From positions 400,490-464,489 of the forward strand of contig JAVZEV010000001.1 of the NCBI GenBank assembly GCA_038873195.1: a stretch of 64,000 nt of DNA. The letters run 5' to 3'. Numbering within the stretch: position 1 is the stretch's first letter; each line of letters starts with the position of its first letter. The stretch comes from Candidatus Bathyarchaeia archaeon (GTDB lineage: Archaea; Thermoproteota; Bathyarchaeia; Bathyarchaeales; Bathycorpusculaceae). Under the pieces are notes generated by a model. That model saw only the letters and a list, made by a program, of their open reading frames with translations, was not told the DNA's origin and did no database searches. This document shows, piece after piece, positions 33,127 to 48,552 of the stretch. The position numbers and the translations under genes were made by a program.

Positions 33127-33203
33127 ATGCGCCTTCTCCGCAAACTTTTAAGTTAGATTATTACCCTTTGGCAAGATAAAACTTAGTTCTTTAGGTGCGG
33201 ACT

Positions 33204-33884
33204 ATGTCCAAAACTAGGAAGATTAAAGCAGTGCTGTTCGACCTTGGAGGGACGCTGGTTAAGACTGCGCATGCTTATGAAATTCACCGAAGAATATTGG
33301 AAGCGCAAGGAATCATTGTTCCACTGGACAGAATTGCAGAGGCTCACGGTATAAATCAGAGAGAGCTTGATGTTGAAGAGATGGCTAGACTGGGACAGAA
33401 GTACTGGATTAAATGGAATTTGAGGATGTTGGAAAGACTTGGAATAAAAGAAAACAGGGAATTTTTGGCACGGAAAATCGACGAGTTATGGTGGGAATAC
33501 GCTGAATTGACCGCTTATCCGGACGTGCAAGAAACTCTCGCAGAACTATCAAGTAAAGGAATTAAAATGGGTATAGTGACGAACGGAACAGAAAAAGACT
33601 TCAAACAAGTCCTTCAAAGACTTAACCTAGCAGGCTATTTTAACATCGTTGTTGGAGTTGACGCTTGCAAAAAGGCGAAACCACACAAGGAAATTTTTCT
33701 CCACGCACTTGCAAAACTCCGCGTGAAGCCTGACGAAACAATTTTTGTGGGAGACTCTGTTGAGCATGATTATGAAGGCGCGCGGAAAGCTGGATTAAAG
33801 CCTGTATTGATTGACAGGGATGGAAAAGGAAATGCAAATTTGGATTCGATAAGGCATTTAACTGAGCTGCTAAAGTATGTTTAA
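33204..33884 (+). CDS. HAD-superfamily hydrolase
   Basis: A 226-residue protein from ATG 33204, with AGGTG six bases upstream (an in-frame GTG is at 33195). HAD motifs: FDLGGTLVKT (motif I, in which the second Asp of DxD is replaced by Gly), MGIVTNGT (II), CKKAKPHKEIF (III) and FVGDSVEHDYEGARKAG (IV). The helical cap between I and II is of the phosphoglycolate phosphatase/haloacid dehalogenase kind. The missing second Asp would weaken the acid/base step of phosphatases, so it may not be a simple phosphatase. Substrate unknown. Confidence 0.85.
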   Translation: MSKTRKIKAVLFDLGGTLVKTAHAYEIHRRILEAQGIIVPLDRIAEAHGINQRELDVEEMARLGQKYWIKWNLRMLERLGIKENREFLARKIDELWWEYAELTAYPDVQETLAELSSKGIKMGIVTNGTEKDFKQVLQRLNLAGYFNIVVGVDACKKAKPHKEIFLHALAKLRVKPDETIFVGDSVEHDYEGARKAGLKPVLIDRDGKGNANLDSIRHLTELLKYV

Positions 33885-34519: not shown

Positions 34520-34621
34520 ACCATGGCAGAGTCTGAAGAAAAAGTTGTCAACTGCTCGTTAAATCAAAGAAAGTATAGGAAAATATTTATCAGTTTGGTT
34601 TTGTATTTTCAAAAAGCATAA

Positions 34622-34686
34622 GGCGATGAAGCTCGCCTTTAACCGCCCTTGCTTTGGCGCTTGCAGGGGCTGATAGCTTCTACCGG
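34622..34686 (+). promoter_or_regulatory. Fluoride (crcB-type) riboswitch
   Basis: P1 stem GGCG/CGCC closes the opening GGCGATGAAGCTCGCC (34622-34637), and a P3-type hairpin follows (about 34645-34670, GCCCTTGC paired with GCAGGGGC). Then comes CTGATAGCTTCTACC (34670-34684). The signature pseudoknot is perfect: GAAGCT at 34628-34633 pairs with AGCTTC at 34675-34680. The conserved 'GGCGATG', 'CTGAT' and 'CTAC' blocks match the crcB motif that binds fluoride with magnesium. A TATA-like ATATTTAT (34583-34590) would start transcription a few bases before. It controls the following operon; no terminator is apparent, so the mechanism is unclear. Confidence 0.93.
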
Positions 34687-34703
34687 CACCCAATGCAAAA
34701 AGA

Positions 34704-35597
34704 GTGGATGTTAGGTTGCGTGAAGTGGGGCGGTTCGCTCTAGCAAACAAAAACGTGTTAGATTCGAATAGGGTGCAATTTGTTAATTCTGGCAGCATCA
34801 AGCGCGCCATAGAATACATTGTAAATCGTCAAAACGAAGATGGAGGATACACTTTTTGTCAAGAAGCTGAGTCAAACGCGCAAGACACTTACTATGGATT
34901 AGCCGTTTTAAGAATGTTGAATGTTCCTTTTCCAAATGTTGAAAAGACAATTAGATGGCTGCTTGAACTTGACTTAGATAGCACTTATTCTTACTATTAC
35001 GTTGCCAAGGCTTTGACTTTGTGCGGTGAGCCTTTAGATTATCGTTTCAAAGAACACGTTTTCTCAGTAATTAATTCTAGAAAATATGTAGGCAAAGAAG
35101 ATGTTTATGCTGAAATTTCTTCTGAATTTGAGTTAACTTTCATGGTTCTAGAACTGGCTGATTTATTGAATGTAAAGTGTGATGGTATCGAAACAGAAAA
35201 GTGGATATTTAAATTTAAAAATGTGGACGGCGGTTTTGGCGCGCGCAAGCATTCCAACATTAACTCAACCTACTATGCATTGGCTTCGCTTGATTTACTG
35301 AAATACAACGTGAAGAAGTTGCAAGACACAAAAATCTTCCTAAGAGAATGCGAGAAACCATATGGCGGATTCACCGTGATTCCTACTTCTGTAACACCTT
35401 ACATGGAGCACACATATTATGGAGTAACGGCTTTAAACTTGGTGGGAGAAAGTTGTAGATTCCCTGCACAAACCGTGGATTTTATTTTGCGATGCCAAAA
35501 TGCTAATGGAGGTTTTGCTCGTTCGGATTCTGGCATATCAACCCTTGAAAATACGTTTCAAGCAGTAAGCATGCTGCGAAAACTTGGCTTTTTGTGA
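34704..35597 (+). CDS. Prenyltransferase/squalene-oxidase-repeat (alpha-alpha toroid) protein
   Basis: About 297 residues beginning GTG 34704 (TTG 34716 and GTG 34725 are alternatives). It has repeated QNEDGGYTF-like, VDGGFGARKH, 'KPYGGFTV' and QNANGGFARS units with intervening helices, the QW-type repeats of the prenyltransferase/terpene-cyclase fold (PF00432). No catalytic DCTAE or DxDD motif is present, so it is not a cyclase of known type. It is the first gene under the fluoride riboswitch. Its role in fluoride response is unknown; it may bind a protein partner or modify a lipid/protein. Confidence 0.8.
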   Translation: MDVRLREVGRFALANKNVLDSNRVQFVNSGSIKRAIEYIVNRQNEDGGYTFCQEAESNAQDTYYGLAVLRMLNVPFPNVEKTIRWLLELDLDSTYSYYYVAKALTLCGEPLDYRFKEHVFSVINSRKYVGKEDVYAEISSEFELTFMVLELADLLNVKCDGIETEKWIFKFKNVDGGFGARKHSNINSTYYALASLDLLKYNVKKLQDTKIFLRECEKPYGGFTVIPTSVTPYMEHTYYGVTALNLVGESCRFPAQTVDFILRCQNANGGFARSDSGISTLENTFQAVSMLRKLGFL

Positions 35598-35609: not shown

Positions 35610-36410
35610 ATGAAAGATGTAGCTTTAAATTATATTCGCGAAGCCTTACATGACGCTGAAAAGTGTCTCTTTTGCAGTTTAGAAGGCAGGTTTGAGCGTA
35701 GGTTTATTGATAGTTACCTCAGCGAGCACGTGATGGACCCAAAAACAAGACAAAAAGTTATTGAAAGCCGAGGCTTTTGTAATTATCACTCATACAAAAT
35801 GTTCATGTCAGCAAACAAGCCGTCTAGTAATGATGGCTTAGGAATGGCATTAACACTGAAAAGTGTTGCTGAGCAGCTACTTGTGGATGTTAAAAGCCAC
35901 GAAAGCTTCGAATCTGCACGATTAAAACCACGAATTTTACGCTTAAAAAATAAGAAAAAACCATTTTCTACTCTCAAATTGTCAAAAACTATTCTCAACG
36001 AATTTAATTGCCCAGCATGTCACCACATTTCAGAAATGATGCAAATTTATATGAGAGCTTTTTTGCAGGAAATTTCTCAAGACGAGAGTTTATGGAAACT
36101 TTACGAAGAATCCAGCGGAATGTGCATCCCTCATTATATTATGATTTTGCAAATAGCCAGCGAGTCATTTGACGAAAAACTCGCGCTTTTAATGCAGAGG
36201 CTAGTTGAGAAGCAAATTAAAACGCTGGAAAAGATGTTAACGGAGCTGTCTACATACATTGAAAAACAAGACTATCATTTTTCAAGCGAAGAACGCGCAA
36301 AAACTGAGAGGACAATTTGTGAGAGTTTAACAAAAATTGTTGGAAGACAAGGAACAGAACGCGTATTAACGAATATGTTGCAAACAAGAGGCATTGTCCA
36401 TGAGACTTAA
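35610..36410 (+). CDS. Cys-rich DUF6062-like protein
   Basis: A 266-residue protein with two zinc-type Cys modules: CLFCSLEGRF then RGFCNYHSYK, and CPACHHISEMM then SGMCIPHYIM, each CxxC...(G)xCxxH. This pattern resembles DUF6062 family proteins of firmicutes. The C-terminal half is helical. Twelve bases after the toroid gene and overlapping the next gene, so the second gene of the riboswitch operon. Function unknown. Confidence 0.7.
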   Translation: MKDVALNYIREALHDAEKCLFCSLEGRFERRFIDSYLSEHVMDPKTRQKVIESRGFCNYHSYKMFMSANKPSSNDGLGMALTLKSVAEQLLVDVKSHESFESARLKPRILRLKNKKKPFSTLKLSKTILNEFNCPACHHISEMMQIYMRAFLQEISQDESLWKLYEESSGMCIPHYIMILQIASESFDEKLALLMQRLVEKQIKTLEKMLTELSTYIEKQDYHFSSEERAKTERTICESLTKIVGRQGTERVLTNMLQTRGIVHET

Positions 36411-36687
36411 CCGTAATAGAAAAGTAAGAATCAAATTTGACATTCCCAAGGATACGTATGATAAGCTAGGAAGCCAAGAAAAAACAGTGGAACTACTCAA
36501 AACGGGGTTGCTTTCGCTGAAAGTTGCTCTTCTAGAGAAAGAAATTGTAGACCTTACTGAAAAAATTAGAGAATCGAAGAAACTCATAGCAGAATTACCG
36601 AGTGAAATCGAAAGTTTGCAAGAACTTCTAAGAGAAGCCGTCAAGGATAGAAAAGTGCTTGAAACCCTTCTCGATAAAAAGGAGTGA
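36400..36687 (+). CDS. Small coiled-coil protein of the fluoride operon
   Basis: A 95-residue protein from ATG 36400, which overlaps the end of the preceding gene. Its basic, strand-like start (RNRKVRIKFDIPKDTYDKL) is followed by a coiled coil with KTVELLK and IESLQELLREAVKD. The 'RKVRIKFDIPKDTY' part resembles a ribbon-helix-helix. Could be a regulator or scaffold. Confidence 0.6.
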   Translation: MRLNRNRKVRIKFDIPKDTYDKLGSQEKTVELLKTGLLSLKVALLEKEIVDLTEKIRESKKLIAELPSEIESLQELLREAVKDRKVLETLLDKKE

Positions 36688-36691
36688 AAAC

Positions 36692-37099
36692 ATGAACATC
36701 CACCATCGGAAAACAAGTGTGAAAAGAATTTTCACAGAAAAAGACAGTGAGATTCATGAATTGGCTAAGGAACTGAATATTTTTCTGGATTCAGAAGCCA
36801 TAAAAAACATAACTACTCTAGGGTTAGAACGCATCAATTCGGAAGCGCAACTTAAAGAGACTATAAAAGAGTTGGAAGAAAAGAAAAAGAAACTTGAACG
36901 CGAATTTAAGGAAATCGCGTCTAAAAGAATCATGCTTGAAGCTCAATATGTTGGACTAAGAAGTCAGATTGTTAGAACCTACCGCGATAACCAAGCGTTC
37001 GCCATGCATTTATGTGCAAAAACTCTAAGAAATGAGCATGAAAGCCAGCTTAGAGAAAAATTAATTCAGAAATACATCATCGATTCTAAACGTATATAA
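36692..37099 (+). CDS. Coiled-coil protein of the fluoride operon
   Basis: A 135-residue protein from ATG 36692, with GGAG eight bases upstream, three bases or so after the preceding stop. It has a long heptad stretch (about 45-85, KETIKELEEKKKKLEREFK) and basic ends. No known domain. Fourth and last gene of the run. Confidence 0.6.
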   Translation: MNIHHRKTSVKRIFTEKDSEIHELAKELNIFLDSEAIKNITTLGLERINSEAQLKETIKELEEKKKKLEREFKEIASKRIMLEAQYVGLRSQIVRTYRDNQAFAMHLCAKTLRNEHESQLREKLIQKYIIDSKRI

Positions 37100-47858: not shown

Positions 47859-47929
47859 GTTGCAACATCCCAACACGCGCTAACTTTAGGAAAAATAAAT
47901 ATACAACTAAATAACATTATCCCCCGCAA

Positions 47930-48021
47930 GGTTTAGGGGAGCTGGGAACATGACCTGGCTGAGAGGACGGCTGAAAGCTGTCGACCCTTAGAACCTGATC
48001 CAGGTAATACTGGCGGAGGGA
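47930..48021 (+). promoter_or_regulatory. TPP (thi-box) riboswitch of thiT
   Basis: Classic THI-element blocks in order: GGGGAGCTGGG, CTGAGAGGACGG, GACCCTTAGAACCTGATC and CAGGTAATACTGGCGGAGGG. The P2-type pairing GGGG with CCC and the CCAG/CTGG stem are present, and the thiT ribosome binding site (GGAGGG at about 48014-48020) lies at the 3' end of the aptamer. An upstream CCCCC run (47930-47935) could pair with it. Thiamine pyrophosphate binding should reduce translation of thiT. Confidence 0.93.
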
Positions 48022-48027
48022 AAAAAC

Positions 48028-48552
48028 ATGAAAGAAAGTAAAGCTACGTCTTCAACTAAAATAATTGCGGAAGTTGTAAGTTTTGTTGCTTTGGCAACTG
48101 CGTTGAGCTACATTAAAGTGTTCAGTCTTCCACAAGGCGGCTCTGTGACTGCTGGTTCAATGGTGCCAATTCTTTGGTTAGCATTGAGAAGAGGAGCGAA
48201 GGTAGGCTTGTTTGCAGCGGTGGTTTATGGTCTTGTGCAGTTAGCGGTTGAGCCATTCATATACCACCCAGCTCAAGTGCTACTGGATTACCCCATAGCT
48301 TTTGGCATGCTTGGATTGGCTGGTTTCTTCCAAAATCGCCCGTTTGTCGGTGTCAACGTGGGCATATGGGGACGTTTCCTAGCGCATTTCATTTCAGGCG
48401 TGATTTTCTTCGGCAGTTACGCACCAGAAGGAATGTCTCCAATAGTATACTCAGCAGTCTACAATGGAGGGTACATATTACCAGAGCTTGCAATAAGCAT
48501 CTACATAGTTTATCTCTTGCAAGAAAGCAAGTTGCTGAAAATATTTCTATGA
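48028..48552 (+). CDS. thiT: ThiT-like thiamine ECF transporter S component
   Basis: A 174-residue membrane protein with five to six helices: FSLPQGGSVTAGSMVPILWLALRRG and 'VYGLVQLAVEP' are ThiT signatures (the thiamine-contact GGSVT/ALRRG region). As an S component it would need an ECF ATPase/T module encoded elsewhere. The TPP riboswitch directly in front supports thiamine uptake. It probably runs on into the following KaiC-like gene 13 bases downstream. Confidence 0.92.
   Translation: MKESKATSSTKIIAEVVSFVALATALSYIKVFSLPQGGSVTAGSMVPILWLALRRGAKVGLFAAVVYGLVQLAVEPFIYHPAQVLLDYPIAFGMLGLAGFFQNRPFVGVNVGIWGRFLAHFISGVIFFGSYAPEGMSPIVYSAVYNGGYILPELAISIYIVYLLQESKLLKIFL

Follow-up and report, generated by a model that had tools for sequence, protein, structure and literature searches.

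The window analysed here is a stretch of 64,000 nucleotides from a Candidatus Bathyarchaeia archaeon, the genome of which spans 1.63 Mb and is 98 % complete. On its forward strand an aptamer of the fluoride (crcB) riboswitch family precedes a compact run of four genes, which encode an alpha-alpha toroid protein, a DUF6062 protein and two coiled-coil proteins (Table 1). A sequence-only reading of this DNA had proposed a crcB motif with a perfect pseudoknot, followed by a toroid-repeat protein, a Cys-rich protein and two coiled-coil proteins, and both the motif and the four genes are borne out. The aptamer also lies where that reading had placed it, although the extent given there, 34622-34686, falls slightly short. 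The gaps within the run (+12, -11 and +4 nt) are consistent with an operon, and a separate Nop5 gene begins 113 nt past it. A HAD hydrolase gene (33195-33884), which shares the strand and lies two genes upstream, was considered as an operon partner and rejected, a promoter-like box standing just before the aptamer.

Table 1. Features of the riboswitch locus in the window. Pairing and covariation of P1 and P3 come from alignment A4 of 36 aptamers from toroid loci.
Feature	Position	Strand	Basis
BRE/TATA-like archaeal promoter GGAAAATATTTAT	34578..34590	+	sequence; ~25 nt 5′ of aptamer
fluoride (crcB) riboswitch aptamer	34613..34689	+	RF01734 51.6 bits, E 2.1e-11; R1 79.8 bits (own model, trained with this aptamer among its sequences)
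P1 hairpin	34622..34637	+	GGCG 34622-34625 / CGCC 34634-34637; 100 % of cells paired, 2/4 pairs covary
pseudoknot 5′ strand GAAGCT	34628..34633	+	partner AGCTTC 34675-34680; exact complement
shared strand AACCGCCC	34641..34648	+	P3 side in aptamer, or predicted partner of toroid gene start in alternative fold
P3 hairpin	34645..34670	+	GCCC 34645-34648 / GGGC 34667-34670; 91 % of cells paired, 3/4 covary
pseudoknot 3′ strand AGCTTC	34675..34680	+	partner GAAGCT 34628-34633
alpha-alpha toroid protein (Prenyltrans family)	34716..35597	+	PF00432 E 7e-24; AlphaFold2, Foldseek
candidate anti-aptamer strand GGGGCGGTT	34727..34735	+	within first toroid codons; putative expression platform
DUF6062 protein	35610..36410	+	PF19538 E 1.5e-33; two CxxC...CxxH-type Cys/His sets
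coiled-coil protein 1	36400..36687	+	ORF overlapping DUF6062 stop; relatives in two genomes' toroid operons
coiled-coil protein 2	36692..37099	+	ORF, GGAGTG 5′ of it; relatives in two genomes' toroid operons

The fluoride aptamer

The cmscan match covers the full length of the RF01734 model (1-64) at 51.6 bits against a curated cut-off of 34, so that the Infernal check suggested by the earlier reading gave a strong match. It is the sole strong RF01734 copy in the genome; the runner-up, at 13.4 bits, is weak, has no R1 counterpart and was rejected. In sequence, P1, P3, pseudoknot and position in the 5′ UTR the RNA resembles the known family. Among the aptamers from toroid loci every cell of the pseudoknot (100 %) is paired, with two-sided changes in four of its six pairs, P1 is paired in all 36, and the helices taken together are paired in 97.4 % of cells, with nine pairs showing two-sided changes. 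Sliding the partner columns by 1-3 as a control lowered pairing to only 38-62 %. Judged by its sequence and covariation, the element is a genuine fluoride riboswitch, predicted to bind fluoride.

A second aptamer subtype in the class (GGCTATGGCATTAGCC, pseudoknot GGCATT/AATGCC) precedes crcB-DUF190 pairs, for example at G101:C1:209507-209584, and the GGCGATGAAG/GAGG type precedes toroids in class genomes. RF01734 is one of three RNA families that cmscan detected in the window. A TPP riboswitch (RF00059, 68.3 bits) at 47925-48039 (+) lies directly 5′ of a Thia_YuaJ thiamine transporter gene (48028-48552), an ordinary TPP target.

Promoter and putative switch

The transcription start expected from the promoter-like box, ~34612-34616, coincides with the 5′ edge of the aptamer. 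TATA-like boxes at -45 to -18 of the aptamer are found at 37 of 52 loci, compared with 18 of 208 control stretches, and the transcript therefore probably starts at the aptamer.

ViennaRNA folding of the window leader without ligand gave the helix between 34641-34648 and 34728-34735 a probability of 0.71-0.99 (about 0.98) and P3 a probability of 0.001; the alternative fold is predicted at -48.3 kcal/mol versus -44.7 kcal/mol for the aptamer fold with P1 and P3, pseudoknot and ligand uncounted. Complementarity between aptamer and gene start exceeds that of shuffled sequences in a contiguous-helix test (Fisher about 2e-6 in each group, with non-independent loci), which was used in place of a global RNAduplex comparison of aptamer and leader that proved too noisy (mean z -1.1). 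A full-ensemble folding test gave weaker support for the platform and agrees only modestly (Fisher 3e-4, shuffled mean already 0.69), and the combined p values overstate independence because the loci are related. The complementary strands fall on the start region or on ribosome sites resembling GGTGGG, and relatives show compensating changes. The same pairing is kept with other letters in G099 (ACCGCCTTT/AAAGGCGGT) and G089 (TTTGCCGTCTT/AGGACGGCAAA); the P1 strand CCCACC lies opposite a GGTGGG ribosome site in family f5, and crcB leaders carry TGCCTACCT opposite AGGTGGGCA.

In the mechanism that we propose, the shared strand would pair, when fluoride is absent, with the anti-aptamer strand in the first toroid codons, disrupting P3 and masking the translation start; binding of fluoride and Mg would stabilise P3 and the pseudoknot, free the start and turn translation ON. 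The complementarity tests and predicted folds make a translational ON switch likely, but unproven, at the archaeal loci, where, unlike in known RF01734 systems, a strand of the aptamer seems to cover the gene start. Alternatively, the leader could govern transcription termination or RNA processing rather than access to the start. Such control would be in keeping with the well-studied fluoride riboswitches, which act on transcription according to PMC11077080, and among bacterial members the copy in L133 carries a terminator-like AGCTTCTACTG...CGGTAGAAGCTTTTTT overlapping the pseudoknot. However, no T-rich terminator lies 3′ of the aptamer in the archaeal window, and strands that single out start regions or ribosome sites, with compensation among relatives, point to translation; we regard termination or processing as unlikely here.

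The toroid and DUF6062 proteins

From the annotated GTG at 34704, which overlaps a ribosome-site-like stretch (GAGTGGATG), the toroid reading frame has 297 codons. Its relatives align from the motif M/L-REAGR, and the TTG at 34716 appears the likelier start. The AlphaFold2 model (pLDDT 88) resembles RabGGTase and GGTase-III beta subunits in Foldseek, with a TM of about 0.7 and about 20 % identity, the best matches being prenyltransferase beta subunits and squalene cyclases. Like protein prenyltransferase beta subunits, the toroid has the alpha-alpha fold and GGF repeat turns; unlike them, it conserves a different polar set and lacks conservation of the Asp-Cys-His zinc ligands. In a sequence-profile alignment, as distinct from superposed coordinates, the corresponding inner-helix positions hold Thr/Ser and Asp/Asn/other and no conserved Cys or His. 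No prenyltransferase alpha subunit was seen beside the toroid among annotated neighbours. The protein has the fold of the PF00432 prenyltransferase beta family, and we do not file it as a member. Among the residues conserved all the way from Chloroflexota to Bathyarchaeota are D61, T62, S140, E217, E235, R273 and T284, and their mostly polar or charged character suggests a polar pocket. The toroid is modelled as a soluble protein, unlike the membrane channel CrcB/Fluc, and usually occurs where CrcB is absent. It is most likely a fluoride-tolerance factor rather than an exporter.

The DUF6062 protein matches PF19538 over residues 9-246 (116.7 bits against a cut-off of 27), and its CxxC...CxxH-type sets are invariant and zinc-knuckle-like. 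Its model resembles no solved fold, a search against the PDB giving no match at E below 0.4, and the literature search found no function for the family. The two coiled-coil ORFs were assigned no family; the second also has a 36-aa match in L179.

Linkage of aptamer and toroid

Among 257 genomes of the class Bathyarchaeia, RF01734 occurs in 58, the toroid in 28, CrcB in 45 and DUF6062 in 14. All but two of the toroid genomes (26 of 28) have a fluoride aptamer adjoining the toroid, immediately upstream by Rfam in 25 and by R1 in G119, where the toroid frame is broken; the two exceptions are G121, which begins at a contig end, and G217, which is without an aptamer. Genome-level co-occurrence has a p near 1e-15, kinship being ignored. 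DUF6062 comes right after the riboswitch and toroid in 12 of its 14 genomes, and directly after the aptamer in G031.

Family f5 and its neighbours have a conserved protein of ~200-220 aa without Pfam match after the toroid (L118:6841-7500, L007:2494-3069, L009:2481-3071). The region G097:C13:114652-128591 (L034) is a fluoride island in which several RF01734 matches surround P-type ATPases, toroid, DUF6062, MFS and MutS-V genes.

Scanning GTDB for the toroid gave 46 loci. The aptamer immediately precedes the toroid in Jordarchaeia (L103), Brockarchaeota (L115), Methanoperedens (L125 and L126) and Archaeoglobus (L142), and likewise in the bacterial loci L131, L133 (Dehalococcoidia), L134 and L137 (Chloroflexi). 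In L124 and L129, which carry the label Deltaproteobacteria and which the tree tool assigns to Myxococcota, it lies upstream within the run of genes that includes the toroid; a weak match of 19.7 bits was obtained in Njordarchaeum (L114). On the toroid tree, loci with an aptamer turn up on several deep branches. Several homologues have no aptamer nearby (L098, L110, L113, L123, L128, L130, L132, L135, L136, L139, L140 and L141), so the family is not exclusively linked to fluoride.

Divergent, back-to-back aptamer pairs occur in L125 (5723-5969), L133 (5657-5940), L134 (5835-5981) and L137 (5751-5976), each serving two divergent operons, one of which is always that of the toroid. In Wolframiiraptor (L128, L132) a toroid-DUF6062 pair is followed by an M20 peptidase gene and no fluoride aptamer was detected; the pair thus also exists outside detected fluoride control.

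The adjacency in 26 of 28 genomes, together with the recurrence in unrelated archaea and bacteria, makes non-exporter genes a conserved target of the riboswitch, in support of the sequence-only reading. Its suggestion that the four genes are candidates for a new fluoride response needs qualifying: the toroid, often with DUF6062, forms the conserved core, and the coiled-coil genes are confined to the closest relatives. The fluoride response of the operon genes we infer from the RNA and the gene neighbourhoods.

Neighbouring genes

Similarly to CrcB/Fluc-DUF190 operons, the toroid stands behind RF01734 in the class, and in G099 and L142 the toroid, CrcB and DUF190 genes share one operon. Na+/H+ exchangers lie beside the toroid in L125, L127 and G073, enolase in L124, a universal stress protein in L125, and MutS domain V (MutS_V) and P-type ATPases in G097. 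CrcB-DUF190, the Na+/H+ exchanger, enolase, universal stress protein and MutS_V are known members of fluoride regulons, in which respect these loci are like other RF01734 systems: PMC11139923 names Na+/H+ antiporters, pyrophosphatase and enolase among the riboswitch targets, and PMC2864571 includes mutS. NUDIX genes adjoin the toroid in L102, L107, L112 and L127, and a HIT gene in L124.

Dynamin-like GTPases are governed by or adjoin fluoride aptamers in bacteria (L131:3139-4974, L124:1430-3178, L127:1524-3275, L134:4091-5815). Members of an MFS family are found beside the toroid or behind their own aptamer (L033:6746-7990, L034:8698-9636, L063:6522-7817, L125:6834-8015).

The toroid differs from the reported RF01734 targets: in the accessible parts of PMC11139923 and PMC2864571 neither it nor dynamin is mentioned as one, although an earlier listing is possible. 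The literature search returned nothing relevant that joins the fluoride riboswitch with prenyltransferase, dynamin or Bathyarchaeota. Baker et al. in 2012 reportedly listed early fluoride riboswitch target genes.

Known fluoride exporters

The sequence-only reading had allowed that a crcB gene might prove to be the real downstream target. This is not so: PF02537 (CrcB/Fluc) has no match in the window genome, and a hidden crcB target was rejected accordingly. In the class, 20 of the 28 genomes with the toroid have neither CrcB nor CLC-F. Four of the 28 encode CLC proteins, which invariably read GxEGP and not GREGT/V, given in PMC11139923 as the CLC-F signature. The one CLC of the window genome was rejected as a fluoride exporter, since it reads GLEGP and GGLFIP, its first part being cut by a contig end. 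Because this gene (G000:C2:175672-176568) is cut, its upstream side, including any aptamer, is not visible. Outside the class, CrcB is present in one of 11 genomes and CLCs in five; GREGT/V was seen in none of these CLCs, the motif not being located in one copy (L194). Incompleteness of the assemblies may explain some of the absences, but not all, because G026 is 100 % and G025, G027, G028 and G179 are 98 % complete. Genomes lacking the known exporters could have exporters of an unrecognised family, such as the linked MFS.

Interpretation

We consider it likely that a genuine fluoride riboswitch here switches ON a tolerance operon, the conserved product of which is the soluble toroid, usually with DUF6062 in the family of this genome. 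The computational evidence establishes the aptamer, its position relative to the promoter and the aptamer-toroid-DUF6062 linkage across lineages. The toroid would act as a cytosolic non-transporter that limits the intracellular harm done by fluoride, next to ion and pH transporters in genomes that have them and, in many genomes, without any recognised fluoride exporter. It might help to clear a phosphorylated or diphosphate compound that accumulates when fluoride blocks phosphoryl-transfer enzymes; this is the least certain part of the proposal, a doubtful guess prompted by the NUDIX and HIT hydrolases that accompany the toroid in both domains. A plausible extension, towards which we are slightly more sceptical than favourable, is that the toroid (with DUF6062, and NUDIX/HIT in some lineages) forms an exporter-independent fluoride-defence module of Archaea and Bacteria, and the main defence where CrcB and CLC-F are missing.

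The fold relatives of the toroid suggest another role, in which it handles an isoprenoid or lipid and, together with the dynamin-like GTPases that share its fluoride-controlled neighbourhoods in four bacterial loci, repairs or tightens the membrane against the entry of HF. Yet polar or charged residues make up most of those conserved between bacteria and archaea, no dynamin was seen among the annotated archaeal neighbours and no alpha subunit was seen next to the toroid, so that action on membranes seems improbable. The MFS protein linked to the toroid may itself be a fluoride transporter that has gone unrecognised, and the toroid could then be merely its accessory subunit or regulator: an MFS gene accompanies the toroid, adjacent or close by, in G072, G073, G097, G098, G099, G130, G143, G197 and Methanoperedens, and follows a fluoride aptamer of its own in G130, G097, G239 and G254. 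Many toroid operons are without MFS, however, the nearest MFS homologue in the window genome is neither linked to the toroid nor preceded by an aptamer, and the tie to the aptamer is more consistent for the toroid than for MFS; we find a purely accessory toroid quite improbable. Least credible by far is that the riboswitch is a leftover, the crcB gene behind it having been lost and the toroid having come under its control by chance. Although crcB is a common aptamer target elsewhere in the class, and a few loci hold both genes in one operon, an intact, covarying aptamer already contradicts it, as does the same junction in 26 class genomes, in bacteria and in other archaea, some of them on deep branches of the toroid tree.

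Conclusions

Fluoride resistance has so far been explained mainly by two exporters together with overproduced sensitive enzymes. A conserved, riboswitch-controlled soluble protein in genomes that lack exporters would, if true, represent a new principle of fluoride defence, and would give a function to the uncharacterised toroid family and to DUF6062. The toroid and DUF6062 are directly testable, the ligand and the switch being known and exporter-deleted strains existing. As far as the RNA and the gene neighbourhoods tell, the toroid operon is a conserved module under fluoride riboswitch control. Many archaea and some bacteria share the pairing of aptamer and toroid, often without a known exporter, and it thus points to a part of microbial fluoride survival that has yet to be studied.
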